Shown here one piece after another: positions 1-56,509 of a stretch of 64,000 bases of DNA (within the stretch, counting starts at the first letter, position 1; every line of letters begins with the position of its first letter). Under the pieces are notes generated by a model that saw nothing but the letters and a program-made list of their open reading frames with translations, was not told the DNA's origin and ran no database searches. The DNA is taken from assembly GCA_017979445.1 (NCBI GenBank), contig CM030715.1, positions 13,479,660-13,543,659 on the forward strand. Direction: 5' to 3'. Source of the DNA: Akebia trifoliata (lineage: Eukaryota > Streptophyta > Magnoliopsida > Ranunculales > Lardizabalaceae). The translations under genes and the position numbers were made by a program.

Positions 1-527
1 TTTCCAAAAAAAGTATTATTCTCTAAAAAAAAAAATGTTTTCTAAGAAAAAACGTTTCCAAAAATATTTTCCAAATTAAAAAACTATTTTCCAGAGAAAA
101 AATATTTTCCAGAAGAAAATGTTTTCCAAAAGAAAAGAAAAAGAAGGAAAAATAATTTGCAAAAGACTATTTTTGCATGAAAAGTTTTTATGGACCTTGG
201 AAAACTACCAAAAAATGTTGCAAAAAAATAATCAGATTTGTGAAATAAAAACTTATTTTCCAATATTTTTCAAGAGTGCAACATAATTATTTTTCTTCTG
301 AATAATCATTGAATGGATGATTTTTTAATGGATTGGTGCACAAAATTCAATAAAATCTCAGGGTTCATTTAAAATGTTATCAAGGGGGTGACACTGAAAT
401 TGGTTAAATTCACCTTCAAGAGGTTTAAGGGTTATCATTGTATCTAAGCTCAATCGTCTATCGTCTAGCTAGGGCTTTAAATCCGGTCAGTTAGAGTAAA
501 CGTCAATATCAAGTCAAACAGTCAGAA
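1..527 (+). other. Leader tail of element copy A, A-rich TTTTCCAGAAAA-type tract
   Basis: An irregular low-complexity tract built of short motifs such as TTTTCCAAAA and CCAGAAAA fills about 1-260. Unique leader sequence follows. The full tract in copy B begins near 42110. A similar tract in opposite orientation precedes ORF1 of element D (about 50545-50700), so it looks like a regular leader component of these elements. No coding signal is seen. Confidence 0.6.
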
Positions 528-713
528 ATGACCTCAAAATTTCTCAACATCGTCCAGTTGTTCTTTAAAGATCATAGTGCTTCAATCCTACCGGTTATAA
601 GCAATATCTCAGTCCTCAGTCCTAATCAAACTCGTATGAGTACTTATCTTGAGTTTTCAAGAGTCATTTGGGTTAGCTCGAGTCCCTTACCAGCAAGGTC
701 ATGTCTTCCTTAG
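528..713 (+). CDS. Unrecognised 61-residue ORF in element copy A
   Basis: A short ORF sits just upstream of the pol remnant. It is identical in copy B (42915-43100), but that follows from the duplication and is not independent evidence of selection. It shows no recognisable domain and no zinc knuckle. In a complete relative this place would hold gag, so it may be a remnant of the deleted region or a chance ORF. Confidence 0.2.
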   Translation: MTSKFLNIVQLFFKDHSASILPVISNISVLSPNQTRMSTYLEFSRVIWVSSSPLPARSCLP

Positions 714-780
714 ATTGAGTCTACTCTTTCCTATTGAGTCAAGTTAGTTCATTGAGTCTATAGAGGTGTCTGTTGTCCCA

Positions 781-1875
781 TCTGAAATTGATCGGATAAA
801 GGAAATTTTTGAATACCTCGAGCGCATTAACGAGTTAACTAATAATTTGATAGATTTCGTTTCTGAACAAGAAGATAAGAGTCGGGCTCAACCTTTAATC
901 GAGAAAGGAAAGGTCTTTGACCTCGAAACAAAAAATAATTCCTAAAGAGATTCAAATAGAAACCATCTTATCCCTAAAGGAACACGAGGGGATAATGAAT
1001 TTACTCAGAAATTTCAAAAGACTTGTTCGTGTGATCATATGAGGGTATGCTAGGTACAAGCTTGGGTGTTGTTCAACACGAAATAGATACTCGTCTATAT
1101 CGATGGAATTAAAGAAGATGTTATAAAATGTATCAACACTATCCTTACTACATCTTCAGTTTCAAATCACATATTATCAGTCGATATGGGGGTACCTTTT
1201 GAACTGATCTCTGATAATGGGTCGTACTTCAAAGCATAAATCATTACTCTATGTTTAAAGTTGAAGATCCGGAAGCACAAATCATCCCCTACCGTCCTCA
1301 GATCAATGGAACGATTGAAGCAGTTAGTAAGAGTCTCAAGACTATCATCAGAAAATTGTGTCAATCACATCGAGATTGGTCAGAAAAATTATCATTCACG
1401 CTATGGACATATCGAGCTTCAATTCGATCCTCTATTGGAGCTACTCCCTACTCTTTAGTGAATGGCATGGAAGCAGTCTTGCCAGTTGAAATGGAAATTT
1501 CGTCTCTCAGGGTCTTGTTGGAAAATCATTTGTTAGAAACAGATTGGGTTTCTTCAGCAGCATGAAGAATTAAACTTGATCGAAGAAAACGAGTTAAAGC
1601 CCTGTACCATGTGCAAGCTTATCTAAGAAGAGTCACCCGTGCATTTGACAAAAAGATCAAAGCTCATCATTTATAAGTCAAGGATTTAACTATCAGACTT
1701 CAAAGAAAATTGAACACTCCTCCTCGACTATAAGAGAAAGTCTGAACCCAATTGGAGAAATTCATTCATTAAGGAAATACTGTCTGGAAAAGTCGTCAGA
1801 CTTCAAGATCATGATGGAAGTGAACTACCAGAACCAACCAACCTTGACCAGATCAAGCGGTGGTACTACATTTAA
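781..1875 (+). pseudogene. pol remnant (RT leader fused by deletion to integrase), copy A
   Basis: Around 960-1100 is the region that precedes reverse transcriptase, readable as a degraded match to the acidic EEHEG..LLRKFKD stretch seen in element O. It is followed almost directly by integrase core sequence near 1185-1330: a GVPFELISDNGSYF motif carrying a catalytic Asp, then the YRPQ.NG..E motif. The C-terminal NLDQIKR tail and stop lie near 1830-1875. Protease, RT catalytic core, both RNase H domains and the integrase N-terminal half are missing. Frameshifts and stops break the rest. It is not functional. Confidence 0.75.
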
Positions 1876-2023
1876 GGAGGCCATCTTTGGCCGAATCAAT
1901 TCTCCTATTACCTAGTTCAATATATCCTTTCTCAACCCTTTTGCAGTATTTTCAAAAAAAAAAAAAATTATGCCTTTTTCTTTCTCAGCCCGTTCACCTA
2001 TCCTAGGGAGGGAAAAATCTGAA

Positions 2024-2086
2024 CTACGTTTTGGTCTGATCCCAAAAATTTGGGGTACGTAGGCAACCTGAGAAGTTACTTCAGGC
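2024..2086 (+). promoter_or_regulatory. Conserved 3' UTR two-hairpin block (copy A)
   Basis: Lies just downstream of the pol stop. CTACGT and ACGTAG flank an inner CCCAAA/TTTGGG stem. A second imperfect palindrome with CCTGA and TCAGG follows. Nearly the same block occurs in every Ogre-like 3' end here (11334-11397, 16479-16550, 44416-44477, 55216-55286). Confidence 0.65.
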
Positions 2087-2393
2087 CCGACCACATCAAA
2101 ATAAAAAATAGATTCCTGATGAAGAAAAAATCTATAAAAAAAAAATGCAAAAAAATATCATCCAAAATGGGGAAGAAAATTCAAGAAAAAGTTTAAATGA
2201 AATGCCACACAAGGGGCATTTGGGTTTTTGAGCATCAAAATCCCTTTCATTTTATGCCTAGTCCAAGCCTACCTATAAAAATCCTCCTAAGTACCGTGTG
2301 AAAAAGTCAAGGAGGGTAGTAGAACATGATCAGACAGTGATTCTAGAAGGTCAGAGGAAAAGAAAAAAAAATAAAAAAAAATGATGAAGCCTG

Positions 2394-2593
2394 CTAAGTT
2401 GAAAACCCGAAAAGGGCGACTTAGGCAAAAATTAAGGCAAGCTCGCAAAGTTGAAAATCTTAAAGGACAACTTTGGCAACAATCAGAGCCAAGAAAAAAA
2501 AAGAAAAAGCTCGCTAGATTGAAAACCTGAAAAGGCGATCTAGGCAAAAGTTAGAGCAAGCTCGATAGATTGAAAATCTGGAAAGGCGATCTA
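2394..2593 (+). ncRNA. Series of four nested hairpins with GAAA-type loops (copy A)
   Basis: Units lie at 2394-2424, 2446-2475, 2514-2543 and 2566-2593. Each has an outer stem (CTAAGTTG/CGACTTAG, CAAAGTTG/CAACTTTG, CTAGATTG/CGATCTAG, TAGATTG/CGATCTA), an AAAA bulge, and a short inner stem such as CCT-GAAA-AGG. The stems differ between units but stay paired, with G.U as the only deviation in the outer stem. This is probably a structured part of the element's 3' UTR and not a separate RNA gene. Confidence 0.6.
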
Positions 2594-3333
2594 GGCAAAA
2601 ATTAGAGCAATAAAAAAAAAACAGAAGAAAATCCCAAGCTGAGAGCAGTTCGAGCCGAAACGTCAGAAATCCGAATAATCAAGTTCAATACTCAGCTTAA
2701 ACCAGGCATAGATTCAGAAGCCACAAGTATCTTGTCTACGATCGATCTGAAAATTCTTACTTCCCCAAGTAAACCAATGGAGAGAAAATGGTGAATTCTA
2801 TGATGAGTCTCAAAAGGAAATATTTTGTTCTCTTGAGCCTGACTCAAAATCTTTAATAAAATTAATCAAAATTAAAAGTTGAATCTTTATTGCGCTTGTG
2901 GTAATCAAATATTTCAAATCTTCATACCAGGGGCATTTTTCTTTTTCATCTAGATATGTAATTTCCTCCTATACCAGGGGCATCTTCTTTATGATGTGTT
3001 CAATTATTTTCAATGCCATGTTTATTGTCAAACTAAGGACATTTTGTTTTTGAGCAATGTTAATCCTAAAATGAGAATTCCAAACTTAAGGTTACTCTTG
3101 ATAGCAGTTTTTCAAAAAACTCTTGAGGTTCAAACTCAGATTTTAAATTTACAAAACTTTTTTAAAACCTTGAGGTTCAAACAAATGCATTCTGAATCTC
3201 ACATAGGAGATAGGACATCCATTCTGTCCCAAATTTATTCATTCCCAGATTCAACCACTCTTCTCCAGACTCATTTTCAATGTTTCTCTCCCAGATTTAT
3301 TTCTTTGTTCTCAGTTTTACTCAGTCAGTTTCC

Positions 3334-5316
3334 GCCAAGGGTTATCTTGGATTTTGCTCAGTTGCCGCCAAGGGTTATCTTGGATTTTGCTCAGATGCCG
3401 CCAAGGGTTATCTTGGATATTGCTCAGATGCCGCCAAGGGTTATCTTGGACTTTGCTCAGTTTCCGCCAAGGGTTATCTTGGATTTTGCTCAGTTGCCGC
3501 CAAGGGTTATCTTGGATTTTGCTCAGATGCCGCCAAGGGTTATCTTGGATTTTGCTCAGTTGCCGCCAAGGGTATCTTGAATTTTGCTCAGTTTCCGCCA
3601 AGTGTTATCTTGGATTTTGCGCAGATGCCGCCAAGGGTTATCTTGGATTTTGCTCAGTTGCCGCCAAGGTTATCTTGGATTTTGCTCAGCCAGATGCCAC
3701 CGAGGGTTTGCTCGGATTATGTTCCGCCAGTTGCCGCCGAGGGTATCTCGGATTTTGCTCAGTTGTCGCCAAGGGTTATCTTGGATTTTGCTCAGCCAGT
3801 TGCCGCCGAGGGTTTGCTCGGATTATGCTCAGCCAGTTGCCGCCGAGGATTTGCTCGGATTATGCTCAGCCAGTTGCCGCCGAGGGTTATCTCGGATTTT
3901 GCTCAGTTGCCGCCAAGGTTATCTTGGATTTTGCTCAGCCAGTTGCCGCCGAGGGTTTGCTCGGATTATGCTCAGCCAGTTACCGCCAAGCGTTATCTTG
4001 GATTTTGCTCAGCCAGTTGCCGCCGAGGGTTTGCTCGGATTATGCTCAGCCAGTTGCCGCCGAGGGTTATCTCGGATTTTGCTCAGTTGCCGCAAGGGTT
4101 ATCTTGGATTTTGCTCAGCCAGTTGCCGCCGAGGGTTTGCTCGGATTTTGCTCAGCCAGATGCCACCGAGGGTTTGCTCGGATTATGCTCCGCCAGTTGC
4201 CGCCGAGGGTTATCTCGGATTTTGCTCAGTTGCCGCCAAGGGTTATCTTGGATTTTGCTCAGCCAGTTGCCGCCGAGGGTTTGCTCGGATTATGCTCAGC
4301 CAGATGCCACCGAGGGTTTGCTCGGATTATGCTCAGCCAGTTGCCGCGAGGGTTATCTCGGATTTTGCTCAGCCAGATGCCACCGAGGGTTTGCTCGGAT
4401 TATGCTCCGCCAGGTTACCGCCGAGGTTATCTCGGATTTTGCTCAGTTGCCGCCAGGGTTATCTTGGATTTTGCTCAGCCAGTTGGCGCCGAGGGTTTGC
4501 TAGGATTATGCTCAGCCAGATGCCACCGAGGGTTTGCTCGGATTATGCTCAGCCAGATGCCACCGAGGTTTGCTCGGATTATGCTCCCAGTTGCCGCCGA
4601 GGGTTATCTCGGATTTTGCTCAGTTGCCGCCAAAGGTTATCTTGGATTTTGCTCAGCCAGTTGCCGCCGAGGGTTTGCTCGGATTATGCTCAGCTAGATG
4701 CCACCGAGGGTTTGCTCGGATTATGCTCAGCCAGTTGCCGCCGAGGGTTATCTCGGATTTTGCTCAGCCAGATGCCACCGAGGGTTTGCTCGGATTATGC
4801 TCCGCCAGTTGCCGCCGAGGGTTATCTCGGATTTTGCTCAGTTGCCGCCAAGGGTTATCTTTGATTTTGCTCAGCCAGTTACCGCCGAGGGTTTGCTCGG
4901 ATTATGCTCAGCCAGATGCCACCGAGGGTTTGCTCGGATTATGCTCAGCCAGTTGCCGCCGAGGATTTGCTCGGATTTTGCTCAGCCAGATGCCACCGAG
5001 GGTTTGCTCGGATTATGCTCCGCCAGTTGCCGCCAAGGGTTAACTTGGATTTTGCTCAGTTTCCGCCAAGGGTTATCTTGGATTTTGCTCAGTTACCGCC
5101 ATGGGTTATCTTGGATTTTGCTCAGTTGCCGCCAAGGGTTACCTTGGATTTTGCTCAGTTTCCGCCAAGGGTTATCTTGGATTTTGCTCAGTTGCTGCCA
5201 AGGGTTATCTTGGATTTTGTTCAGTTTCTGCCAAGGGTTATCTTGGATTTTGCTCAGTTGCCGCCAAAGGTTATCTTGGATTTTGCTCAGTTTTCGTCGA
5301 AAGTTTTCTCGGAATT
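3334..5316 (+). repeat. 33/37-bp tandem hairpin array (copy A)
   Basis: About 55 units alternate between a 33-bp form and a 37-bp form that carries an extra CCAG. Each unit holds a short hairpin, either CCAAG-GGTTAT-CTTGG or CCGAG-GGTTTG-CTCGG. Long ORFs run through it in several frames only because 33 is a multiple of three. The array lies between the pol remnant and the polypurine tract. Confidence 0.95.
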
Positions 5317-5641
5317 ATGCTCAGTTTATGCTCAGATTATGCTCAAATTATACTCATATTTTACTCAAATTTATCTCAGATTTTAAATCACACACTTGCA
5401 CAGTTGTTATATCAGTCAATGAGAATTTTTTAAATTCAAGGATTTGACACTGCCAGTGAGAGCTCGCGCTCAAGGACCTGACATTTTCTTTTAGTTCGGG
5501 GAGAGTTTACCCTCAAGGATCCGAACACCCCGACGAATTGCTAAATCAGGCTGCAAAATGAACTGTCACTAGCTTTGGCATTCAGATATCGCACTATCTA
5601 CCAAAATAGATTTGCTATCTAGTTTACTTCAACCCTCTGCC

Positions 5642-5654
5642 AAAGAGGGGCATC
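5642..5654 (+). promoter_or_regulatory. Polypurine tract of element copy A
   Basis: AAAGAGGGGCATC lies directly against the TGTAGACACC start of the LTR. This is the expected plus-strand primer position for a 3' LTR. The same tract is found at 48034-48046 and, reversed, at 13854-13866. Confidence 0.8.
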
Positions 5655-7396: not shown

Positions 7397-7445
7397 TATA
7401 CTCGAGGGTTGAAGGAATGTCCATAATTTTAAGACGATCGCAAAG

Positions 7446-8120
7446 TCACATATAAAGTAGATGAGGACATCCTTTAAAATCCCCTCCCTCACCATTTTTT
7501 ATGGCATCCAAACCTGAGAAGGTTTCAGCTAGAATGAGAGGTACGGGATTGACTTTTCTTGAGAACTGGGAAGCTATGTCTATGAAAGACTCAGGAACAG
7601 TTTGACCCTCACTTTTGGAAGTCAGCATGTATTGGGCTAAGATCCCTAAACACAATCGATAGTCTCTAGTGGATCTCCAAGCTTCTAGTTTTACATTGAT
7701 GGGATGACTGCGGGAGTGGTATGGACACAATAAGGGTACTAAATCTCCCATTACAGACTGAGGCCTTGGCTTCTTCCTTTGAAATTTTAGGCCTGTGGCG
7801 AGGTCACCAGAATATCCTGTCTTCAATGAAGGCCTGACTAGAGGACCTGAAGTAGATATTCCCATGATGCCACAATAGTCTTCATGAGTAGGATACAAGT
7901 GCATATGTCCAATGTGGAAGATGTGAAGATAAGGGTTCCAATGCTTAGCCATAGCGTGCAAAAGGTTCCAATCTATCTCAACCTCGTCGAAGTACAGGGC
8001 GCATCTCAACATGAATTTTGCAAAGTTGAATTTCTTTACGGTGTGCATCCCCGTGATGGTTGTTTTGATCAATTGGTCGATTGGGTTATTGCCTGTAGCC
8101 AGCATCCTGAGTTGACACAA
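7446..8120 (-). pseudogene. ORF1-like protein of element D, N-terminal part (copy A)
   Basis: A 224-residue ORF aligns with the ORF1 of element O (30575-31673): both share a LYPTHEDYC-IMG segment, a W.P..H.F..G....YPT stretch, and a PVP.ILAETF..L segment near the end. The reading stops where O has LLYLWLC, here as LLYM then TGA (Trp to stop). Extra ORF1 proteins upstream of gag are known in Ogre-type elements, and their function is not established. Similarity to the plant mobile domain/DUF7745 group is possible but unchecked. The LTR at 5655-7396 is inserted just downstream. Confidence 0.65.
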
Positions 8121-8244
8121 GAGAATAGTTCAGTACATTTCCAAGGTCTATGTAAAATTACTTTTCTTTTGAAAATTTTTGTTCTTATGGAAAACACTTT
8201 TCTATTTTGAAAATATTTTTCCTAGAGAACACTCCTTTTGGAAA

Positions 8245-8344
8245 NNNNNNNNNNNNNNNNNNNNNNNNNNNNNNNNNNNNNNNNNNNNNNNNNNNNNNNN
8301 NNNNNNNNNNNNNNNNNNNNNNNNNNNNNNNNNNNNNNNNNNNN
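8245..8344. other. Assembly gap of exactly 100 N
   Basis: A run of 100 N is a conventional placeholder of unknown true length. It separates copy A of the duplication from the gag fragment. ORFs spanning it are meaningless. Confidence 0.99.
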
Positions 8345-10245: not shown

Positions 10246-10861
10246 AATCTAACTCCATAGGAATCATTTTTTTTTAGATGGTCAAGTCAACATTTGAACC
10301 TCAGGGGTTTTCAAAAAAATGCTATCGAAAGAGTAACCTTTAATTCCAGATTTTTCCTTATCCTTTGGGGCTGGAATTGATCAGGCTTAAGAACAACAAA
10401 AAAAATGCCCCTAGTTTGATAGGGCCTTATACTAGGGATAATTGAACATATTTTGAAATGACGTGCCTCTACTATAAGGGGAAAAATAAACACGCTTCCA
10501 AACAAAAGGAGAGGTGCCCCTAAAATATGAAAATTTGAAGTCTTAGATTACCACCAGTGCAATAAGGATTCACTTTTAATTTCGATTTTATTGAAGATTA
10601 TGAGTCAAGCTCATTTGTTGGGAACAAATATTCACTTTTGAGATTCATCTTGGAGATCACGTTCTTTCCCCTTTGGTTCACTTAGGAAAGTAAACTTTTC
10701 CAGATCAGTCGTAGACGAGATACATGTGTCTTCTAAGTCTTTGCCTGTCTTAAACTGGGTATTGAAGCTTGCTCATTTCAGATTTCTGACGCTCTGACTC
10801 GGCTTGTCTTTTCAGATTTTCGGCTTGACGGAGATTTTCTTTTTATTGCTCTATCTTTTGC

Positions 10862-11062
10862 CTAGATTGGCTATTCAGGTTTTCAATCTAGGGAGCATGC
10901 TCTAACTTTTGCCTAGACCGCCTTTTCAGGTTTTCGATCTAGCGAACTTACAATGTTCTTTTTCTTTGCTCTGATTGTTGCCAAGGCCGTCCTTCCATAT
11001 TTTCAACCTTGCGAGCTTGCCTTAATTTTTGCCTAAGCCTTCCTTTCGGGTTTTCAACCTAG
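10862..11062 (-). ncRNA. Series of four nested hairpins (element O)
   Basis: Units lie at 10862-10891, 10913-10942, 10982-11011 and 11033-11062. Sense (minus) outer stems are CTAGATTG/CAATCTAG, CTAGATCG/CGGTCTAG, CAAGGTTG/CGGCCTTG and CTAGGTT/GGCTTAG. Imperfect pairs are all G.U in the sense RNA. Inner CCT or CCC with a GAAA-like loop is kept in part. Confidence 0.6.
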
Positions 11063-11333
11063 CAGGCTAACTTTTTTTTTTTTAGTTTTTCTTTTTGAGT
11101 TCTGGAGTTGTTGTCTGATCACGCTTGCTATTTTCCTCGACCTTTTCGTGCGGTACTTAGGAGGACTTCCATAGGTGGGCTTAGGAATAGGCTAAGAAAG
11201 AAAGGAGATTTGAGGCTCGAGAACCCAAATACCCCTTATGTGGCATTCCTTTAAAATAGTTTTCTTTTCCTTCCCCATTTTGACAATTTTTTCTTTACGA
11301 GAGAACATATTTTTTTTATTTTTTGAACTGGTC

Positions 11334-11397
11334 TGGCTTGAAGTAACTTCTCAGGTTGCCAACATACCCCAAAATTTTGGGATCAGACCAAAACGTA
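11334..11397 (-). promoter_or_regulatory. Conserved 3' UTR two-hairpin block (element O)
   Basis: Reverse-strand version of the block after the integrase stop. CCCAAAATTTTGGG and the CTACGT-type outer arm are recognisable but partly decayed, with ACAT in place of ACGT. The CCTGAGAAGTTACTTCA palindrome is nearly intact. Confidence 0.6.
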
Positions 11398-11534
11398 GTT
11401 CGAACTTTTCCCTCCCCTAAGTTAGGTGAACGGGCTGAGAAAGAAGAAATTTTTTTTAAAATGGCTGCTAGGGGCTGAGAAAGGAGATATTTAATCGGGT
11501 GACAGGAAAATTTGTTCGACCGAAAATGGCCTCC

Positions 11535-12113: not shown

Positions 12114-13853
12114 TGAAAGCGCCCTCGATCCGCGGGGTGCGCGGATCCGCTTTTGACCCTTGAGGTTTGGGAGTCGCCACCTAGTTGTTAAGGTCTAGGA
12201 ACCAAACTGACTCTAAAGAAGGCAAACTAATCTACGAAAGAAAAAAAAAGGGTCCGGGGATCACGTTACGGGGTTGGAAGGTGCTAGGTACCAACCCCGC
12301 CCGGCCAAAGCCGGTCTCTACTAACTTTCAAAATAAATTACATTGCTAAAAACCTAGATAATAATAAAAATAAAAAAAGATTATACCTTTCCGATAGCAA
12401 AGACATTGTTCCCTCAGATCCGACAAAAGTTGCTCCTGTACCGTACTTCTTGCTTTGTTCTGTCTCCGGATTTGATTTTCGATCTCCGAGGTAAGGTATT
12501 TCTTTTTTCCTTGGATCTGAATTCTTCAAGTTTGTTGTGGATTTTGGGATGTTTTTGGAAGGTGTTTAGGTGTTTTTTTAGGCTAAAATCGAAGTATGGG
12601 TGTTAGGTAAGGAGTTAGGACTTCAAAACTAGGGTTTATGGGAGGCTAGAGGGACATTTTGACCTACTTCTTTTAGGGTTTAAGATTTGATACGAAAATA
12701 GGGTGTGAGCACCTCTATTTATAGATTTTTTTAGGGATTAATTTGGATAGAGTTAGTATTTAATTAGAGTTCTTTTAATTAGAGTTGTATTTTAGTTAGA
12801 CTTGTTTTAGGTATAATTGTGTTTTAATTAGAATTATATTAGGTAGAATTGTTTTTAAGTTAGAACTCTATTAGATTGAGTTATTATTTAATTAGAACTC
12901 TATTATGACTTTTGGTCTTATTTGATTGACTTTTAATGTTTTGACTTTAGTCTTAATTGATTGACATTTAATATCTTTACTTTAGTCTTGCTTAATTGAC
13001 TTTAATTTTGACTTCAGTTTCACTTGATTGACTTTGGTACTTTGAATTCAGTCTTGTTTGATTTACTTTTAATTTTTGGAGAACCCCCCTCTAAAATATC
13101 TTTAATTCTTTGGACCCCCAAATGGAGGGGTCCTTAAAGAAATATCTCACGAACCCTCAATAATTTTACTTGAATATCCGATTGATCGATTTCTTCGGTT
13201 AAAAATTTTAAATTAATTTCATTAATGTTTCACTTTAATTATTTAATGTTTTATTTATTAATTTTGAATTTTTTAATTATGAAAATTGTGAAATTATCGT
13301 TTTACCCCTTGAGAGGACTTTTCACGTTTTAAGTCGGTTTTTAATGTTCTCGGATGTTTTAGAATCGATTTTTCGTAAGGAATTCAATGGAAATATTAGT
13401 TTGTGTCATTTATGAAATTTTTTGTGTGAAATGATCATGAACTTTATGAGGGGCATTTTCGTAATTTTGTCAAATTCTTTTAAAATTGGTGAAATGATTT
13501 ATTTGGTTCCGATTTGTTATTTTATGTGTTCGAGAGAGTTTTTCTAAGCGTAACGTAGGCTCTAGGGTTGTTTTGAGATTAGGGGTATTTTGGTAATTTG
13601 GAGAATTTTTAGTGATTTTTATCGTGAAGCTTTTTTTTGGTCTGCAAGATGATGATTTCTATGTTTCTGGGGTCGTATTTTCCTAGCGTAGCGTGATTTC
13701 TACAGTTTTATCAGTTCAAGATACCTCATCCGGATTTTTGAAACATTTCTGGTAACAAAATAAAGCAATGGAAATAACATCCATCATTGGGAACCGTTGC
13801 AATCGGGTTGACGAGTTGATTAATCAGGCGAGTGCAAAAATGAGGTGTCTACA
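12114..13853 (-). mobile_element. 3' LTR of element C
   Basis: On the plus strand it runs TGAAAGCGCC to GTGTCTACA (reverse: TGTAGACA to GGCGCTTTCA). TATA box at 12715-12723, donor-like site at 12385-12386, U5 hairpin at 12270-12298, PBS-like motif near 12169-12180, U3 hairpin at 13112-13133. Same family as the LTRs of element B, but with a degenerate ACCCTAA region. Confidence 0.93.
12715..12723 (-). promoter_or_regulatory. LTR TATA box (element C, 3' LTR)
   Basis: TATAAATAG on the minus strand. The matching box in the 5' LTR is at 23225-23233. Confidence 0.65.
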
Positions 13854-15330: not shown

Positions 15331-15938
15331 TTCAAAATCGAGCTCAAAGTTTGAAAGATTAGGCCTTTATTGGCTTATCATGCATCTGGATTCGTAATTA
15401 TCGTTAGGCTTCGTCGAACTTTTAAGCTTTTGTATGATTTTCTTTTTATCATGTGATTAAGAACAAAAATTTTTGAATAAAAAATGCCCCTAGTTTCAAG
15501 GTTGGCTTTAACTGGGACTTGACTACGAGACTGATGGAATGGATTACGCTTGAAAAATATGGACTCTGATGTTTGATAGATAGAAGAACTGATATTCTCT
15601 TAAATTTAAGAGTCTTAAGATTATCATATGTGAAATAAAGAATTGATCATTATTTTTGAGAAATGCTTGAGCTGGACTTAAAAAATCTTGATAAATATTA
15701 GAATAGAAGATCTTTCTTTTCAAAGTAGTTGATGATTCTACATCTTCCATTAGCGAACACTTGAACAAGTAAACATACTTTTGAAGATCCTACAGTGTTC
15801 AAGATGATTTCTGATTTTTTTGACTTCAACATTGTGGCTTGAATGGTTCTGCATTTTCTAGTTTCTGTACTAGCTTCCTTTTGAATTTTTCTTCTTGATG
15901 GGACCTTTCCTCCCATTTGATGATGCCCTAATTTTTGC

Positions 15939-16107
15939 CTAGATTGTCTCTTCAGGTTTTCAATCTAGCGGACTTTATTTTTCTTTTTCTGATGATGCCT
16001 TGATTTTTGCCTAGGTCGCCTTTTCAGGTTTTCAACCTATCAGACTTTCTTTTTTATGGTTATGCCCTAAATTTTGCCTAAATCGCCTTTTCAGGTTTTC
16101 GACTTAG
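15939..16107 (-). ncRNA. Series of three nested hairpins (element C)
   Basis: Units at 15939-15968, 16012-16039 and 16078-16107. Sense stems are CTAGATTG/CAATCTAG, TAGGTTG/CGACCTA and CTAAGTCG/CGATTTAG. The single non-Watson-Crick pair in each of the last two is G.U on the sense strand. Inner CCT-GAAA-AGG is kept in two units. Confidence 0.6.
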
Positions 16108-16478
16108 CGGGCTTCTCTTTTTTTTTTCTTGATGATCTTGTATAACCAACTCGACAACTTCTTGGTTCCCTGCACCTTAACCGAATCAATTAGCATTCAG
16201 GAAGAGTTAATAGGTAGGCTTAGGATATGGTTCAGAAAGAAAAGATATAAGGCTCAACTTCCCAAAATACCCCTAGTTTGATATTCTCTCTTTTCTGTCA
16301 ATTATTTTGATTTTTTCTAAATGCCCCTAATTTGGCATTATTTTCTTTTATCAATTCTTTTGATTTTTTTTTCTAATGCCCCTAGTTTGGCATTCTTTTC
16401 TTTTGAACCTTTCAATAGGGGATTTTTTTTTGGATGACACTTTCCTTAAGAGAATACATTTTTCTTTTAATGATCGGG

Positions 16479-16550
16479 CCTGAAGTAACTTCTCAGGTTG
16501 CCTACGTACCCCAAATATTTTTTTGATTTTGGGATCAGGTCAAAACGTAG
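16479..16550 (-). promoter_or_regulatory. Conserved 3' UTR two-hairpin block (element C)
   Basis: Sense strand CTACGTTTTG...TACGTAGGCAACC, then the CCTGAGAAGTTACTTCAGG palindrome. The inner loop is expanded by A/T residues, but the CCCAAA and TTTGGGG arms remain. Confidence 0.65.
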
Positions 16551-17414
16551 TTCATACTAAGATTCCCTCCCAGGTTTAGTTGGTGTGGTTTAGAAAGAAA
16601 CAGGCTATTTGATTTTTTAGAGGCTGCAAGGGGCTAAATAAGGTTTTCTTTTTCTTAGTAAGACAGGACAATGGTTCGACCAAAAAAGGCCTCCTTTTGT
16701 GAAATACTACTCTATTTGGTCAAGGTTTTAGGAATTTGATATCTGGATTGCTCTGTCAAGTAAGGTTTTCTTTTGAGAATAAATACTCTTTAGTCTTCTT
16801 TTATGAAATTGAGTATGATCGAGTTTTTTGACTATTCAACTCTTCTAAAACTTTGAGAAAATCTTTTATTCTCTTATGAATGAAAACTCTCCTCTTTTGA
16901 GTGGAAAACATGGTAAATCTACTGTAGGTCTTAGCATCTTTGTCGATGTTTTCAGCTATATCATTTTTGACCGATAATCTTTGACTTTGAAATCACTCTT
17001 GACTTGATCTATATTTTTTGTGTAATTCATCCATATATCCTTATGAGATCATGCAAGAAATATTGTTGAATTTCTCAAGTAAGTGTACTATTCTTTCATG
17101 TTCTCTTGAGGATAATGTATCACCAATTTACACTCCTTGAGTGTACTCTTTAATTCCAATATTTATTAAGTTCAGTTAGTGAGCTTTAAGTCATTTCTCA
17201 TGTTAAATCTTATATTCAAATCATTATTGCACACATGATAATCAAAAGCTTCTTTATTTATTGGAATTGAAAAGAACATAGACTGACAAACATTACTAAA
17301 ACTCAAAAATAAAGATGACTAACTGAATTCAAAGACTGACGCAACTAAAGCTAAAAAAAAACTAAGACGACATCATTATGAATGGAAGGATACAATTCTA
17401 GAGTCTATGCCACT

Positions 17415-22621: not shown

Positions 22622-24347
22622 TGAAAGCGCCCTCGATCCGCGGGGTGCGCGGATCCGCTTTTGACCCTTGAGGTTTGGGAGTCGCCACCTAGTTGTTAAG
22701 GTCTACGAACCAAACTGATTCTAAAGAAGGCAAACTAATCTACGAAAGAAAAAAAAAAAAGGGTCCGGGGATCACGTTACGGGGTTGGAAGGTGTTAGGC
22801 ACCAACCCCGCCTGGCCAAAGCCGGTCTCTACTAATTTCTCAAATAAATTACATTGCTAAAAACCTAGATAATAATAAAAATAAAAAAAGATTATACCTT
22901 TCCGATAGCAAAGACTTTGTTCCCTCAGATCCGACAAAAGTTGCTCCTGTACCGTACTTCTTGCTTCGTTCTGTCTTCGGATTTGATTTCCGATCTCCGA
23001 GGTAAGGTATTTCTTTTTTCCTTGGATCTGAATTCTTCAAGTTTGTTGTGGATTCTGTGATGCTTTTGGAAGGCTTTTAGGTGTTTTTTAGGCTAAAATC
23101 GAAGTATGGGTGTTAGATAAGGAGTTGGGGCTTCAAAACTAGGGTTTATGGGAGACTAGAGGGACTTTTTGACCTACTTCTCTTAGGATTTATGATTTGA
23201 TACGAAAATAGGGTGTGAGCACCTCTATTTATAAATTTTTTTAGGGGTTGATTTGGATAGAGTTAGTATTTAATTAGAGTTGTATTTTAGTTAGACTTGT
23301 TTTAAGTAGAATTGTGTTTTAATTAGAATTATTTTAGGTAGAATTGTTTTTAAGTTAGAACTCTATTAGATTGAATTATTATTTAATTAGAACTCTATTA
23401 TGACTTTTGGTCTTATTTGATTGACTTTTAATGTTTTGACTTTAGTTTTAATTGATTGACTTTTAATATCTTGACTTTAGTCTTGCTTAATTGACTTTAA
23501 TTTTGACTTCAGTTTCACTTGATTGACTTTAATACCTTGACTTCAGTCTTGCTTGATTTAATTTTAATTTTTGGAGAACCCCCCTCTAAAATATCTTTAA
23601 TTCTTTGGACCCCCAAATGGAGGGGTCCTTAAAGAAATATCTCACGAACCCTCAACAATTTTACTTGAAAACTCGATTGATCTATTTCTTCGGTTCAAAA
23701 TTTTAAATTAATTTCATTAATGTTTCACTTTAATTATTTAATATTTTATTTATTAATTTCGAATTTTTTAATTATGAAAATTGTGAAATTACCGTTTTGC
23801 CCCAGAGAGGACTTTTCACGTTTTAAGTCGGTTTTTAATGTTCTAGGATGTTTTAGAATCGATTTTTCATAAGGAATTCAATAGAAATATTAGTTTGTGT
23901 TATTTATGAAATTTTTTGTGTGAAATGATCATGAACTTTATGAGGGGCATTTTCGTAATTTTGTCAAATTCTATTAAAATTGGTGTAATGATTTATTTGG
24001 TTCCGATTTGTTATTTTATGTGTTCGAGAGAGTTTTTCTAAGCGTAACGTAGGCTCTAGGGTTGTTTTGAGGTTAGGGGTATTTTGGTAATTTGGTCAAT
24101 TTTTAGTGATTTTTATCGTGAAGCTTCTTTTTGGTCTGCAAGATGATGATTTCTATATTTCTGGGGTCGTATTTTCCCAGCGTAGCGTGATTTCTACAGT
24201 TTGGTCAGTTCAAGATACCTCATCCAGATTTCTGAAACATTTCTAGTAACAAAATAAAGCAATGGAAATAACATCCATCATTGGGAACCATTGTAATCGG
24301 GTTGACGAGTTGATTAATCAGGCGAGTGCAAAAATGAGGTGTCTACA
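22622..24347 (-). mobile_element. 5' LTR of element C
   Basis: Same ends as the 3' LTR, with the PBS directly inside. TATA box at 23225-23233, donor-like site at 22896-22897, U5 hairpin at 22781-22809. Differs from 12114-13853 by scattered substitutions and short indels. Confidence 0.93.
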
Positions 24348-30288: not shown

Positions 30289-30574
30289 ACGACCTGACTC
30301 TCGACTCCAACCAGGTGGCGGACGCTTAAGTTTGGGCGCAATAGTCTACTGAAACCCCATCAAAGGTGAATTAAGAATTGATCCCTTTTGATAGCATTTA
30401 CTTTTATTATTATAATTGATGAGTTGTGTTGGTCGAACTTATGTCTGATGAGGTGATTTATTGTTAATTAGGGCCTTATAAAAAAAAACTCTCATTAAAA
30501 ATCGTACCAATGAGACAAATGCGAACAACAAAAGAAATGAGGAGACTCTCCTCTTAAAGTAAAGATGACTCGAT

Positions 30575-38201: not shown

Positions 38202-39945
38202 TGTAGACACCCCATTTTTGCATTCGCCTGATTAATCAACTCGTCGACCCGATCGCAAAGGTTCCCAATGATGGATGTCTATTCCAATACTTTATTTTGT
38301 TACCAGATATGTTTCAGAAATCCGGATGAGGTATCTCGAACTGACAAAACTTAGAAACCACGCTACGCTAGGAAAATACGACCCCAGAAACATAGAAATC
38401 ATCATCTTGCAAACAAAAAGAAGCTTCACGATAAAAATCACTAAAATTACCAAATTACCCCTAACATCAAAACAACCCTAGAGCCTGCATTATGCTTAGG
38501 AAAACCCACTCAAACACATTAAACAACAAATCGAAACCAAGTAAACCACTTCGCCAATTTTCACAAAATTTGACAAAATTACGAAAATACCCCTCATAAA
38601 GTTCACAATCATTTCATACAAAAAACTTCATAAATGACAAAAACCAACATTCCCATTAAATTCCTTACGAAAAACTGATTCCAAAACATCCTGAAACATT
38701 GAAAAACGACTTAAAACGTAAAAAATCCTCTCCGAGGGCAAAATGGTAATTTCACAATTTTCATAATTAAAAAATTCGAAATTAATAAATAAAACATTAA
38801 ATAATTATAGTAAAACATTAAATAATTAAAGTAAAACATTAATGAAATTAATTTAAAATTTTGAACCTAAAAAATTGATCAATCGGACTTTCGGGTAAAA
38901 TTGTTGAGGGTTCGTGGGATATTTCTTTAAGGACCCCTCCATTTGGGGGTCCAAAGAATTAAAGATATAATAGAAGGGGGGTCTCCAAAAATTAAAAGTA
39001 AATCAAGCAAGACTGAAGTCAAGGTATTAAAGTCAATCAAGTGAAACTGAAGTCAAAATTAAAGTCAATCAAGCAAGACTGAAGTCAAGGTACTAATCGA
39101 GTCAATCTCATAAGACTAAGGTCAAAACCCTAAATCAAAACCCTAATCTAAATTAATCAAGTCAATCTCATAAGACTAAGGTCAAAACCCTAAATCCAAA
39201 CCCTAATCTAAAACTAATCAAGTCAATCTCATAAGACTAAAGTCAAAACCCTAAAACCCTAAAGACTAAGTCAAAACCCTAATTGAAACCCTAAAAGAAA
39301 CCCTAATCAAACCCTAAATGCTTCTAAAAAACTTTATATAAATAGGAGCCTCCACACCCTATTTTCGTATCAAAGAAAAAACCTAGAAAAAGTAGGTGAA
39401 GAAGCCTCCACAACCCCTCCAAAACCCTAATTTTGGAGCCCCAACTCCTTCCCAACCCCCAACTCCGATTTTAGCCTAAAAAACACCCAAAAACCTCCTA
39501 AAAATATCTCAAAAATCCACCACAAATTCAAAGCATCCAGATCCAAGAAGGAGACACCTTGCCTCGGAGATCAGAAATCAGATCTGGAGACAAAACGAAG
39601 CAAAGAGTACGGTACAAGGAACTGTTTTTCAGATATGAGGGAATAGTACTTTTGCAGATCGAAGGTAAATTTTATTTTTTTATTTTTTTAATCTAGGTTT
39701 TATCATTAGCGACGTGTTATTTTGATAATAAGTAGAGACGAGACCGGCATGGCCGGGCGGGGTTGGTGCCTAACACCTTCCAACCCCGTAACATGATCCC
39801 CGGATTCAGATTTCTATAGTAGATTAGTTCTTTTTATCCATTGTAGGGTCAAATTGGTTCTTAGACCGTAATAACTAGGTGGCGACTCCCAAACCTCAAG
39901 GGTCAAAAGCGGATCCGCGTACCCCGCGGATCGAGGGCGCTTTCA
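38202..39945 (+). mobile_element. 5' LTR of element B
   Basis: TGTAGACACC to GGGCGCTTTCA. ACCCTAA-rich stretch at about 39125-39325, TATATAAATAG at 39335-39345, donor-like GT at 39665, U5 hairpin at 39759-39787. One small difference from the 3' LTR is an extra GAGAC before the first U5 hairpin. Confidence 0.94.
39335..39345 (+). promoter_or_regulatory. LTR TATA box (element B, 5' LTR)
   Basis: TATATAAATAG. The 3' LTR has TATAAATAG at 49179-49187. This would drive the element transcript. Confidence 0.7.
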
Positions 39946-43139: not shown

Positions 43140-44265
43140 TGAGTCTATAGAGGTGTCTGTTGTCCCATCTGAAATTGATCGGATAAAGGAAATTTTTGAA
43201 TACCTCGAGCGCATTAACGAGTTAACTAATAATTTGATAGATTTCGTTTCTGAACAAGAAGATAAGAGTCGGGCTCAACCTTTAATCGAGAAAGGAAAGG
43301 TCTTTGACCTCGAAACAAAAAATAATTCCTAAAGAGATTCAAATAGAAACCATCTTATCCCTAAAGGAACACGAGGGGATAATGAATTTACTCAGAAATT
43401 TCAAAAGACTTGTTCGTGTGATCATATGAGGGTATGCTAGGTACAAGCTTGGGTGTTGTTCAACACGAAATAGATACTCGTCTATATCGATGGAATTAAA
43501 GAAGATGTTATAAAATGTATCAACACTATCCTTACTACATCTTCAGTTTCAAATCACATATTATCAGTCGATATGGGGGTACCTTTTGAACTGATCTCTG
43601 ATAATGGGTCGTACTTCAAAGCATAAATCATTACTCTATGTTTAAAGTTGAAGATCCGGAAGCACAAATCATCCCCCTACCGTCCTCAGATCAATGGAAC
43701 GATTGAAGCAGTTAGTAAGAGTCTCAAGACTATCATCAGGAAAATTGTGTCAATCACATCGAGATTGGTCAGAAAAATTATCATTCACGCTATGGACATA
43801 TCGAGCTTCAATTCGATCCTCTACTGGAGCTACTCCCTACTCTTTAGTGTATGGCATGGAAGCAGTCTTGCCAGTTGAAATGGAAATTTCGTCTCTCAGG
43901 GTCTTGTTGGAAAATCATTTGTTAGAAACAGATTGGTTTCTTCAGCAGCATGAAGAATTAAACTTGATCGAAGAAGAAAACGAGTTAAAGCCCTGTACCA
44001 TGTGCAAGCTTATCTAAGAAGAGTCACCCGTGCATTTGACAAAAAGGTCAAAGCTCATCATTTATAAGTCAAGGATTTAACTATCAGACTTCAAAGAAAA
44101 TTGAACACTCCTCCTCGACTATAAGAGAAAGTCTGAACCCAATTGGAGAAATTCATTCATTAAGGAAATACTGTCTGGAAAAGTCGTCAGACTTCAAGAT
44201 CATGATGGAAGTGAACTACCAGAACCAACCAACCTTGACCAGATCAAGCGGTGGTACTACATTTA
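43140..44265 (+). pseudogene. pol remnant of element B (RT entry plus integrase C-terminal part)
   Basis: As in copy A: the pre-RT acidic segment near 43360-43400, then integrase GVPFELISDNGSYF near 43577-43620, HKSSPYRPQINGTIEAV near 43665-43710, the YGMEAVLPVEMEIS segment near 43850-43890 and the NLDQIKR end with stop at 44263-44265. The catalytic RT, RNase H domains and integrase zinc region are deleted. Indels relative to copy A shift frames around 43675 and 43740. Confidence 0.78.
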
Positions 44266-44415
44266 AGGAGGCCATCTTTGGCCGAATCAATTCTCCTATT
44301 ACCTAGTTCAATATATCCTTTCTCAACCCTTTTGCAGTATTTTCAAAAAAAAAAAAAATTATGCCTTTTTCTTTCTCAGCCCGTTCACCTATCCTAGGGG
44401 AGGGAAAAATCTGAA

Positions 44416-44477
44416 CTACGTTTTGGTCTGATCCCAAAAATTTGGGGTACGTAGGCAACCTGAGAAGTTACTTCAGG
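44416..44477 (+). promoter_or_regulatory. Conserved 3' UTR two-hairpin block (element B)
   Basis: CTACGT...CCCAAA/TTTGGG...ACGTAG, followed by CCTGAGAAGTTACTTCAGG. Same position relative to the pol stop as in O, C and R. Confidence 0.65.
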
Positions 44478-44786
44478 CCCGACCACATCAAAATAAAAAA
44501 TAGATTCCTTGATGAAGAAAAAATCTATAAAAAAAAATGCAAAAAAATATCATCCAAAATGGGGAAGAAAATTCAAGAAAAAGTTTAAATGAAATGCCAC
44601 ACAAGGGGCATTTGGGTTTTTGAGCATCAAAATCCCTTTCATTTTATGCCTAGTCCCAAGCCTACCTATAAAAATCCTCCTAAGTACCGTGTGAAAAAGT
44701 CAAGGAGGGTAGTAGAACATGATCAGACAGTGATTCTAGAAGGTCAGAGGAAAAGAAAAAAAAATAAAAAAAAATGATGAAGCCTG

Positions 44787-44986
44787 CTAAGTTGAAAACC
44801 CGAAAAGGGCGACTTAGGCAAAAATTAAGGCAAGCTCGCAAAGTTGAAAATCTTAAAGGACAACTTTGGCAACAATCAGAGCAAGAAAAAAAAAGAAAAA
44901 GCTCGCTAGATTGAAAACCTGAAAAGGCGATCTAGGCAAAAGTTAGAGCAAGCTCGATAGATTGAAAATCTGGAAAGGCGATCTAG
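44787..44986 (+). ncRNA. Series of four nested hairpins (element B)
   Basis: Same four units as at 2394-2593. Structure as described there. Counted once for covariation because the two segments are duplicates. Confidence 0.6.
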
Positions 44987-45714
44987 GCAAAAATTAGAGC
45001 AATAAAAAAAAAACAGAAGAAAATCCCAAGCTGAGAGCAGTTCGAGCCGAAACGTCAGAAATCCGAATAATCAAGTTCAATACTCAGCTTAAACCAGGCA
45101 TAGATTCAGAAGCCACAAGTATCTTGTCTACGATCGATCTGAAAATTCTTACTTCCCCAAGTAAACCAATGGAGAAAATGGTGAATTCTATGATGAGTCT
45201 CAAAAGGAAATATTTTGTTCTCTTAAGCCTGACTCAAAATCTTTAATAAAATTAATCAAAATTAAAAGTTGAATCTTTATTGCGCTTGTGGTAATCAAAT
45301 ATTTCAAATCTTCATACCAGGGGCATTTTTCTTTTTCATCTAGATATGTAATTTCCTCCTTATACCAGGGGCATCTTCTTTATGATGTGTTCAATTATTT
45401 TCAATGCCATGTTTATTGTCAAACTAAGGACATTTTGTTTTTGAGCAATGTTAATCCTAAAATGAGAATTCCAAACTTAAGGTTACACTCTTGATAGCAA
45501 TTTTCAAAAAACTCTTGAGGTTCAAACTCAGATTTTAAATTTACAAAACTTTTTAAAACCTTGAGGTTCAAACAAATGCATTCTGAATCTCACATAGGAG
45601 ATAGGACATCCATTCTGTCCCAAATTTATTCATTCCCATATTCAACCACTCTTCTCCAGACTCATTTTCAGTGTCTCTCCCAGATTTATTTCTTTGTTCT
45701 CAGTTTTACTCAGT

Positions 45715-48046: not shown

Positions 48047-49787
48047 TGTAGACACCCCATTTTTGCATTCGCCTGATTAATCAACTCGTCGACCCGATCG
48101 CAAAGGTTCCCAATGATGGATGTCTATTCCAATGCTTTATTTTGTTACCAGATATGTTTCAGAAATCCGGATGAGGTATCTCGAACTGAAAAAACTTAGA
48201 AACCACGCTACGCTAGGAAAATACGACCCCAGAAACATAGAAATCATCATCTTGCAAACCAAAAAGAAGCTTCACGATAAAAATCACTAAAATTACCAAA
48301 TTACCCCTAACATCAAAACAACCCTAGAGCCTGCATTATGCTTAGGAAAACCCACTCAAACACATTAAACAACAAATCGAAACCAAGTAAACCACTTCGC
48401 CAATTTTCACAAAATTTGACAAAATTACGAAAATACCCCTCATAAAGTTCACAATCATTTCATACAAAAAACTTCATAAATGACAAAAACCAACATTCCC
48501 ATTAAATTCCTTACGAAAAACTGATTCCAAAACATCCTGAAACATTGAAAAATGACTTAAAACGTAAAAAATCCTCTCCGAGGGCAAAATGGTAATTTCA
48601 CAATTTTCATAATTAAAAAATTCGAAATTAATAAATAAAACATTAAATAATTAAAGTAAAACATTAAATAATTAAAGTAAAACATTAATGAAATTAATTT
48701 AAAATTTTGAACCTAAAAAATTGATCAATCGGACTTTCGGGTAAAATTGTTGAGGGTTCGTGGGATATTTCTTTAAGGACCCCTCCATTTGGGGGTCCAA
48801 ATAATTAAAGATATAATAGAAGGGGGTTCTCCAAAAATTAAAAGTAAATCAAGCAAGACTGAAGTCAAGGTATTAAAGTCAATCAAGTGAAACTGAAGTC
48901 AAAATTAAAGTCAATCAAGCAAGACTGAAGTCAAGGTACTAATCGAGTCAATCTCATAAGACTAAGGTCAAAACCCTAAATCAAAACCCTAATCTAAATT
49001 AATCAAGTCAATCTCATAAGACTAAGGTCAAAACCCTAAATCCAAACCCTAATCTAAAACTAATCAAGTCAATCTCATAAGACTAAGTCAAAACCCTAAA
49101 ACCCTAAAGACTAAGTCAAAACCCTAATTGAAACCCTAAAAGAAACCCTAATCAAACCCTAAATGCTTCTAAAAACTTTATAAATAGGAGCCTCCACACC
49201 CTATTTTCGTATCAAAGAAAAAACCCTAGAAAAAGTAGGTGAAGAAGCCTCCACAACCCCTCCAAAACCCTAATTTTGGAGCCCCAACTCCTTCCCAAAC
49301 ACCCCAACTCCGATTTTAGCCTAAAAAACACCCAAAAACCTCCCAAAAACATCTCAAAAATCCACCACAAATTCAAAGCATCCAGATCCAAGAAGGAGAC
49401 ACCTTGCCTCGGAGATCAGAAATCAGATCTGGAGACAAAACGAAGCAAGGAGTACGGTACAAGGAACTGTTTTTCAGATCTGAGGGAATAGTACTTTTGC
49501 AGATCGAAGGTAAGTTTTTTTTTTATTATTTTTTTAATCTAGTTTTATCATTAGCGATGTAGTTATATTTGGGATAAGTAGAGACCGGCATTGGCCGGGC
49601 GGGGTTGGTGCCTAACACCTTCCAACCCCGTAACATGATCCCCGGATTCAGATTTCTATAGTAGATTAGTTCTTTTTATCCATTGTAGGGTCAAATTGGT
49701 TCCTAGATCGTAATAACTAAGTGGCGACTCCCAAACCTCAAGGGTCAAAAACGGATCCGCGCACCCCGCGGATCGAGGGCGCTTTCA
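48047..49787 (+). mobile_element. 3' LTR of element B
   Basis: Nearly the same as 5655-7396 (duplicate) and close to 38202-39945. ACCCTAA-rich region at about 48970-49165, TATAAATAG at 49179-49187, donor-like GT at 49510, U5 hairpin at 49601-49629. Confidence 0.94.
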
Positions 49788-55085: not shown

Positions 55086-55215
55086 TTCTTTGGCCGAACC
55101 ATTCTCTTATCTTACCGAGAAAAATGTAATCTTCTTTAGTCCCTCGCAGTCTTAGAAAAAAAAATTTTAGTAGCCCCTTCTTTCTAAACCACACCAACTA
55201 ACCTTGGGAGGGAAA

Positions 55216-55286
55216 CTACGTTTTGACCTGATCCCAAAAAGAAAATGATTTGGGGTACGTAGGCAACCTGAGAAGTTACTTCAGGC
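55216..55286 (+). promoter_or_regulatory. Conserved 3' UTR two-hairpin block (element R)
   Basis: CTACGT...ACGTAG with an enlarged A-rich inner loop, then the intact CCTGAGAAGTTACTTCAGG palindrome. Confidence 0.65.
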
Positions 55287-55644
55287 CTAGTCACAACAAA
55301 AAAATAAAATATACGTTCTCTCAAAGAAAATATGAAAAAAAAAATTCCCTACTGAAAGATAAAATGGGGATAATGCCAACCTAGGGGCATTGGAAAAAAG
55401 AATAAAAGTTGACAAAAAATGCCTAACTAGGGGCATTAGAAAGAGAGATTCAAAAGAGTTGTCAAAAACGGATAATGTTATACTAGGGGCATTTTGGGAA
55501 GTTGAGCTTTATACCTTTTCTTTCTAAATCATGTCCTAAGCCCACCTATTAAGTCCTCCTGAATGTTAATTGATTTGGTTAAGGTCTAGAGAACCAAAGG
55601 TTGTCAGGTTGAGTATCCGAGATCAACAAAAAGAAAGAAGCCCG

Positions 55645-55815
55645 CTAAGTTGAAAACCCGAAAGGGCGACTTAGGCAAAAGTTAGGGTATAGTAAAAACA
55701 AAAAGCAAGCCTGCTAGGTTGAAAACCTGAAAAGGCGACCTAGGCAAAAATCAAGGCATCTTCAGAAAAGGTAAAACAAAGCCCGCTAGATTGAAAACCT
55801 AAAGAGGCGATCTAG
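55645..55815 (+). ncRNA. Series of three nested hairpins (element R)
   Basis: Units at 55645-55674, 55714-55743 and 55785-55815. Outer stems CTAAGTTG/CGACTTAG, CTAGGTTG/CGACCTAG and CTAGATTG/CGATCTAG. Inner stems CCC-GAAA-GGG, CCT-GAAA-AGG and CCT-AAAG-AGG. The first is an exact GNRA tetraloop hairpin. Confidence 0.65.
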
Positions 55816-56509
55816 GAAAAAATTAGGGCATCATCAAATGGAAGGAAAGATCCCACCAGGAAAGACAATTTAGAAGAAAAGCTTACACAGAAGTTGGAGA
55901 ATGTAGAAAATTGTTCAAGTCAGAACATTCATTTTTTAGTTGAGAGCTCACATTTGATAATAACCATGTTGAAGTCGAAGAAACTCAGGAGCCTTTCTTT
56001 TGGACATTGCAAGATCTTCAGTAGTGTCTGCTAATGGGAAGTGTAGAATCATTGACTACTTTGAAGAGGAAGATCTTATATTCCAATATTTATCAAAGCC
56101 CAGCTCAAACATTTTTCAAAAAAATATTCGAAAGAGAATGATTAATTCCTTATTGCACATATGATAATCTTAAGAGTCTTGAACATGTAGAGGAATGCTG
56201 GTCTTTCTGTCTATTAGAGTCCGTAGCTTCTCATCCACTTTTCAAGTGCAATCCATTCTATCAGTTTCACAGTCAAGTTTCAGAGATAAGCCAACCTTGA
56301 AACTAGGGGCATTTTTGAGAATAATTTTGATTCTGAAATTTGCATTCTTGATCCTCTAATCAAAAGGAAAAATCTTATTTAAAATCTTAAAAGTTCGGCG
56401 AAGCCCAATCATAATTATGAATCCAGATGCATGATAAGCCAATAAAGGCTCAATCTCTCAATCGTTGAGCTCGATAATACTGAGTCTTTAATTGATCCAA
56501 GCCTGTGAA

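Follow-up and report, generated by a model that had tools for sequence, protein, structure and literature searches.

Our analysis confirms that the hairpins predicted in the 3′ untranslated regions of Ogre/Tat-type LTR retrotransposons of Akebia trifoliata are real, and the tandem array that they form is very probably an RNA structure shaped by selection. The arrays are located between pol and the 3′ LTR of these elements, as seen in the two complete copies (elements A and B) of the window, by which we mean the whole 64-kb stretch of DNA analysed here (13479660-13543659 of its contig, in an assembly of 652.5 Mb and 878 contigs). This reading draws on the shared fold and layout of the units, on their covariation, and on a bias towards G.U over A.C among the variants common within a unit class.

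Hairpin arrays and the elements that carry them

All 14 distinct units claimed by the initial annotation are present, within array limits slightly wider than those it gave. Element A carries array E1 (44780..45001, plus strand, four units) downstream of its integrase remnant and before its 3′ LTR; the array recurs in a copy adjoining an assembly gap (2387..2609, plus strand), whose four units lie at 2387-2439, 2439-2490, 2507-2558 and 2558-2609. Array E2 (10847..11069, minus strand, four units) belongs to an outer element into whose integrase element B has inserted, E3 (15924..16114, minus strand, three units) to element B itself, and E4 (55638..55830, plus strand, three units) to an element of the same group as B. 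A position matrix built from the sequence of the 14 units alone recovers these and the four duplicated units, with a lowest score of 58.9, and nothing else at or above 12 in the 64 kb; three shuffled windows gave no score of at least 8.

The unit is about 50 nt long and consists of a basal stem of 4 bp, an internal loop with an A-rich 3′ strand, a stem of 8 bp, a near-invariant AAAA bulge, a stem of 3 bp and a loop that is mostly GAAA. The outer stem, AAAA bulge, inner stem and loop had been recognized from the start, and the five outer-stem variants then quoted are all found in the aligned units, but the basal stem had been overlooked; it is paired in 100% of the 14 units, for example as GCTC/GAGC, GCCT/AGGC or GCCC/GGGC. 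The aligned units share 15 base pairs in three stems, with standard pairs in 96.2% of cells as against 27-47% when the partner columns are slid by 1-3 positions, and RNAalifold, run on the 14 units without a given structure, returns the same 15 pairs, including the basal stem. Both arms had been said to change together, and two-sided changes indeed occur in 7 of the 15 pairs. Out of 500 shuffles of the 14 units, none reached the observed number of paired cells, the number of double-change cells or the covariation score, and 19 reached the number of pairs with double changes; 389 attained the observed count of further pair types, a measure showing no excess over chance.

Nested Ogre/Tat-type LTR retrotransposons crowd the window, and two complete ones could be bounded. 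Element A (38202-49787, plus strand) is flanked by the TSD TATAC; its 5′ LTR (38202..39945, plus strand) is followed by TGGCGACTC, which resembles a primer-binding site, and just before its 3′ LTR (48047..49787, plus strand) lies the polypurine tract AAAGAGGGGCAT. An RT remnant and, directly after it, the integrase remnant (together 43252..43680, plus strand) are found upstream of array E1. Element B (24347-12114, minus strand; TSD CCTAC) is bounded by a 5′ LTR at 22622..24347 and a 3′ LTR at 12114..13853, both on the minus strand, and carries gag and an RT scrap, an integrase match being absent. Its insertion site is the end of the integrase ORF of the outer element, which it splits and whose DUF7745, gag and integrase regions lie between 31443 and 24318 (minus strand). 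The DUF7745 match (30694-31443, minus strand; 31.5 bits for a cutoff of 26) stands upstream of gag (29344-30342, minus strand), and a second remnant at 7446-8126 (minus strand) matches DUF7745 with 29.9 bits and the plant mobile domain with 21.4 bits, below the cutoff of 34.9. An extra ORF with a plant mobile domain upstream of gag is reported for 57% of Ogre elements in an excerpt of PMC6317226. Both complete elements show features of the Ogre lineage, namely 5-bp TSDs (TATAC and CCTAC) with TG...CA LTRs, and tandem repeats between pol and the 3′ LTR, at 45704-47682 in A and 14529-15265 in B.

Several other features were observed along the way. The 33-37-nt repeats of element A (45690-47760, plus strand) also form hairpins; of 43 matched repeats, 20 have the stem CCGAG/CTCGG and 18 have CCAAG/CTTGG, which amounts to a G-C/A-T swap with both sides changed. 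Another tandem array at 36800-37620 (plus strand) often has CGAC/GTCG or CAGC/GCTG stems round a constant ACGGA-like loop (29 matches) and is less clean, with A.C in 12 of 116 cells. Motifs of the type AATGCC...GGGGCATT recur in the 3′ UTRs (2200-2221, 16298-16404 and 48035-48047); they resemble the polypurine tract of element A and might serve as additional sites of plus-strand priming. A DUF7745-type ORF remnant on the opposite strand (49792-50464, minus) immediately follows the 3′ LTR of element A, and this element may sit inside the first ORF of another one, as seen on one flank. Finally, positions 1-8244 and 42389-50636 form an 8.2-kb duplication, 99.3% identical, that ends exactly at a gap of 100 N (8245-8344). 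Because it stops at this gap, the array at 2394 is probably an assembly duplicate of the one at 44787, not a second element.

Conservation and covariation across the genome

The arrays are abundant in the genome. One unit pattern, allowing up to three mismatches, gave 13,219 matches in the 652.5-Mb assembly against 0 for the reversed pattern, and a second one, which leaves most stem letters free and favours the first unit of group A, gave 2,423 against 8. We sampled 118 loci, these being the places listed first by the two pattern searches: 88 loci, covering 89 of 100 listed places on two contigs, come from the first pattern, which fixed one unit per array, the class of that unit being no free sample, and 30 loci on one of these contigs come from the second, whose constraints were the unpaired positions of the first unit together with a few of its stem letters. 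Together with the four arrays of the window and minus 12 repeats, they make a counted set of 110 arrays with 418 units, 276 of them distinct. The copy in 1-8244 was dropped from this set, as were the 12 repeats, arrays that matched one already in the set exactly over 300 nt; most of them represent a single place sampled twice.

Of the 110 arrays, 83 have four units, 23 have three, three have five and one has two. Of 81 four-unit arrays of group A, 75 have a first spacing of 52 and 80 have a third spacing of 51, the middle, A-rich linker being variable (60-72); of 19 three-unit arrays of group B, 15 show the spacing 67 and 13 the spacing 72. The middle spacings differ by non-multiples of three, which argues against coding. 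Each unit position has its own stem sequence, kept across arrays; of the 418 units, 411 have an intact AAAA bulge and 331 a GAAA loop.

Four comparisons of group A with group B, counted over aligned letters, give 68-75% identity for the array, as against 45-50% for the sequence downstream and 58-63% for that upstream and in between; a 66-nt block upstream reaches 91-97%. Within group A (30 loci), the mean deviation from the majority is 0.032-0.060 in the unit columns (the search query having partly determined units 3 and 4), 0.064-0.134 in the flanks and 0.032 in the block; unit 2 (class A2 up to 0.060), at 0.050-0.060, comes close to the quietest flank, at 0.064. The groups also differ in coding content: in a scan that covered a median of 1.3-1.4 kb upstream per locus, an integrase match is found in 26 of 31 group-A loci, at a median of 1.26 kb upstream of the array, and in 0 of 17 group-B loci, 11 of which have an RT scrap upstream. 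Group B looks like a deletion group without detectable integrase that has kept its arrays.

The upstream block is noncoding, near-invariant and more conserved than the hairpins themselves. It lies 297-408 nt upstream of the array in 51 of the 52 arrays with enough flank (at most 7 differences), and in the window it occupies 44413..44479 in element A (plus strand; also 2021-2087), 11335..11401 in the outer element with E2 (minus strand), 16477..16553 in element B with E3 (minus strand) and 55213..55287 with E4 (plus strand). In element A it can be drawn as two crossing helices, CTACGT/ACGTAG and UGGUC/GACCA, and two hairpins. RNAalifold, run on 51 block copies, shows the helix UGGUC/GACCA turning into UGACC/GGUCA in group B; of 47 distinct copies, 18 show a two-sided change at one pair and 16 at the pair next to it, and 96.7% of cells are paired, against 20-50% when slid. 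The nearly invariant CTACGT/ACGTAG pairing was added by eye and is absent from the RNAalifold prediction, one hairpin pair fails in 18 of the 47 copies, the two group-B copies of the window each break one pair of the covarying helix, and two of five measures of the shuffle control (pairs with double changes, and pair types) show no excess. The block may form a second folded module, which would be a pseudoknot if both crossing helices form. As its compensation follows the A/B split, it corresponds to one or two events and constitutes a lead, not a proof.

Covariation within the hairpins was evaluated with an R-scape-like test, in which the parsimony substitutions on a FastTree tree of the distinct units are replayed on random branches and an APC-corrected G statistic is computed. 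Summed over the 15 pairs, it amounts to 433.7 for 137 distinct units, against 5.7 in the null (sd 50.2, maximum 181.6; 0 of 300 replicates), and to 756.4 for 268 distinct units, against 10.1 (sd 79.3, maximum 352.8; 0 of 200), 8 of the 276 distinct units having been dropped for this test only. With the 268 units, predicted pairs rank 1, 2, 3 and 5 among all column pairs; standard pairs make up 93.8% of cells, against a null mean of 79.1% (maximum 88.5%, in 60 of the 200 null sets). Covariation, named in the initial annotation as the check on the fold, is accordingly present in the fold as a whole, its sum exceeding the tree-based null, but pair by pair it is mostly not significant. A single pair passes E<0.05 in the two smaller sets only (0.007 and 0.027), the best value in the largest set is 0.125, and several predicted pairs show no covariation at all in the set that gave 0.027. 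About seven unit lineages exist in two element groups, and six double changes are kept on the tree of 137 distinct units. The single-pair signals are weak because some seven lineages provide about one double change per covarying pair, and the independent compensations are few because all the material comes from one genome, with its seven or so lineages in two element groups.

Polarity of the variants and probable selection on the sense strand

A stem under selection as sense RNA should accept G.U but not A.C, whereas decay of the DNA after insertion should make both equally. The initial annotation had described the outer-stem mismatches as G.U only, never A.C. In the 14 units of the window A.C is indeed absent from this stem, but A.G or G.A occupies 3 of its 112 cells; the inner stem holds A.C in two cells at pair 25-35 and in one at pair 27-32, and in the larger sample A.C is present and, among rare variants, as frequent as G.U. 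For the polarity count alone, we dropped 40 of the 418 units that fall outside the four-unit or three-unit layouts, as well as pair 27-32, in which the partner is displaced by a 1-nt insertion in class A1. The variants common in their class (at least 10%) then comprise 17 G.U and 3 A.C, against 33 and 32 for the rare ones (at most 5%; Fisher p=0.0086). Other cut-offs give p=0.006 (rare at most 3%) and p=0.0056 (common at least 15%, 12:1), and the contrast weakens to p=0.044 with common at least 5% and rare at most 3% (35:17). A smaller, earlier sample had 17:3 among common and 27:27 among rare variants. The common variants are partly non-independent and, collapsed to distinct pairs, amount to 7 G.U versus 3 A.C. 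When the changes are placed on tree branches, the ratio is 17:8 on internal and 42:30 on terminal branches, in the same direction and not significant (p=0.48). One pair of class A2 illustrates the pattern, its 64 copies comprising 43 G.U, 17 A-U, 3 G-C, 1 U.U and 0 A.C.

A strand-biased mutation process behind the G.U excess was considered and rejected, as the flanks of the 30 group-A loci show no matching bias: their common variants include 168 of the GU type and 153 of the AC type, with rates per site of 0.128 for A>G versus 0.165 for T>C, and of 0.367 for C>T versus 0.347 for G>A.

The fold is also more stable on the sense strand, with an MFE of -10.78 kcal/mol against -8.49 kcal/mol for the antisense and a lower sense value in 185 of 217 units; after shuffling there is no difference (-7.19 and -7.11). 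Units folded singly adopt the drawn fold within 4 positions in only 60 of 177 cases. Seven class examples folded singly all form the hairpin, the base of the outer stem being paired one step shifted (G12-C45); this added pair is unsupported, with 19 A.C and 18 G.U among the 418 units. These strand differences bear on the idea that the arrays are palindromes acting at the DNA level, as sites for a DNA-binding protein or as cruciforms. The units are inverted repeats, and in Retand elements, which are Tat relatives, the region from pol to the 3′ LTR codes in antisense for a putative DNA-binding protein (excerpt of PMC11963269), but a DNA site is strand-symmetric, unlike the excess of G.U among common variants and the weaker antisense fold. 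Sense and antisense stability and G.U and A.C among common variants being both unequal, we rejected such a function, which is extremely improbable.

A further alternative dispenses with any RNA function: the arrays would be hypervariable palindromic tandem repeats of the 3′ UTR, alike by recent descent and by copy correction through palindrome-perfecting template switching. Tandem repeats are a known hypervariable feature of Tat/Ogre 3′ UTRs (excerpt of PMC7004042, citing Macas et al. 2009), those of Retand 3′ UTRs are family-specific (excerpt of PMC11963269), and our arrays share with them the compartment, the tandem organisation and the element clade. Moreover, other arrays of the window are hairpin-like too, the unit classes are few and shared descent explains much of their similarity, few single pairs exceed the null, and the polarity counted on tree branches is not significant. 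However, in contrast to hypervariable or family-specific repeats, the order, spacing and pairing of the units are maintained between two groups with diverged flanks, and the array is, together with the upstream block, the most conserved part of a diverged 3′ UTR. Copy correction would not favour G.U over A.C, as seen among common (17:3) but not rare (33:32) variants, and none of the 200 tree-based null sets reaches the summed covariation. We consider this explanation improbable. Selection on the element RNA, which the initial annotation had read from the polarity, draws support from the G.U excess among class-common variants, the stability of the sense fold and the covariation, but not from the tree-branch contrast. 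On balance, the sense RNA was under selection while the elements replicated, and the copies are now decaying neutrally.

A candidate transport or packaging element

The conservation of the unpaired letters while the stems drift, the repetition of the units and their retention without integrase suggest a multivalent protein-binding site acting in cis. In our tentative proposal, the array would act in cis as a structured part of the genomic transcript in Ogre-type LTR retrotransposons, its three or four units in fixed order would serve as a multivalent docking platform, and a protein would bind the conserved unpaired A-rich letters. Once bound, the full-length RNA would be exported unspliced from the nucleus, in the manner of the transport elements of animals, and by this analogy the array is a candidate export or trafficking element of genomic RNA, a role to which we give somewhat less than even chances. 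The transport elements of animals (IAP RTE, MusD MTE and M-PMV CTE) have a noncoding 3′ position and A-rich internal loops. They resemble the array as structured cis-acting RNAs, its export role being putative, and by their position between pol and the 3′ LTR, but Ogre differs in having three or four small tandem hairpins and a separate upstream block, with no Rfam match. In animal retroelements, RNA transport elements export unspliced RNA (excerpts of PMC12786077, PMC3856414 and PMC10746203), and the IAP RTE and MusD MTE export full-length RNA (excerpt of PMC12786077). In pea and Medicago, the intron of Ogre transcripts is spliced from only a subset of them, according to an excerpt of PMC6317226, and it follows that genomic RNA has to be exported unspliced. 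NXF1, the receptor of the animal elements, is not used by plants (excerpt of PMC12786077), so that an export role needs another adaptor.

Gag recruitment for packaging is nearly as likely as export. The array would then be a packaging or dimerisation signal, bound by Gag to select genomic RNA for virus-like particles, a possibility that we regard as real, if doubtful. Retroviral psi elements are found mostly near the 5′ leader, which counts against it. Like them, the array consists of cis-acting stem-loops kept by non-autonomous members; unlike them, it lies in the 3′ UTR. Group B keeps its arrays without detectable integrase, as expected for elements packaged in trans, but element B still has gag. 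A multivalent array would suit an oligomer such as Gag, and two precedents can be cited: BARE2 of barley cannot produce Gag itself but has retained packaging signals and is packaged (excerpt of PMC3735527), and a packaging defect caused by a point mutation in the 3′ UTR of an avian retrovirus appears in a title cited in PMC3856414.

The 3′-UTR position has also led us to consider 3′-end formation, translation control or small-RNA production, a set of roles that is very unlikely. The array of element A begins 1.1 kb past the integrase remnant, and the stems, of 3-8 bp, seem too short to be processed by Dicer-like enzymes. As for 3′-end formation, listed among the possible roles in the initial annotation, it is unlikely and was rejected, the arrays standing 2-3 kb before the 3′ LTR (2.1 kb in element B, 3.0 kb in element A).

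In agreement with the early statement that no named RNA family resembles these hairpins, Rfam 15 gave 0 matches at the gathering threshold in the window; a search with 44200-45200 returned one chance-level hit (14.5 bits for a gathering threshold of 41, E=4.8). The literature, as far as its excerpts and search results go, yielded no report of RNA hairpins in Ogre 3′ UTRs. The unit and block patterns had 0 matches each in microbial and viral contig collections, a weak test for a plant element; likewise, no integrase was confirmed in viral contigs and, for gag, 0 of 994 candidates in a protein collection reached E<=1e-10. Structured transport or packaging RNAs are known in retroelements, and hairpins arranged in tandem in the Ogre elements of plants would represent a new form of them.

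The pseudoknot-capable block and the three or four hairpins might even constitute a composite module of the Ogre 3′ UTR, a transport or packaging element that non-autonomous elements must keep, although this remains a doubtful extension of our data. Known here from one genome, such a module may be recurrent across plant Tat elements. The contrast between common and rare variants (17:3 versus 33:32) offers a simple separation of selection during the life of the element from decay after its insertion, and a fold with defined unpaired letters, present in thousands of copies and kept without detectable integrase, provides a concrete site for tests of export and packaging.
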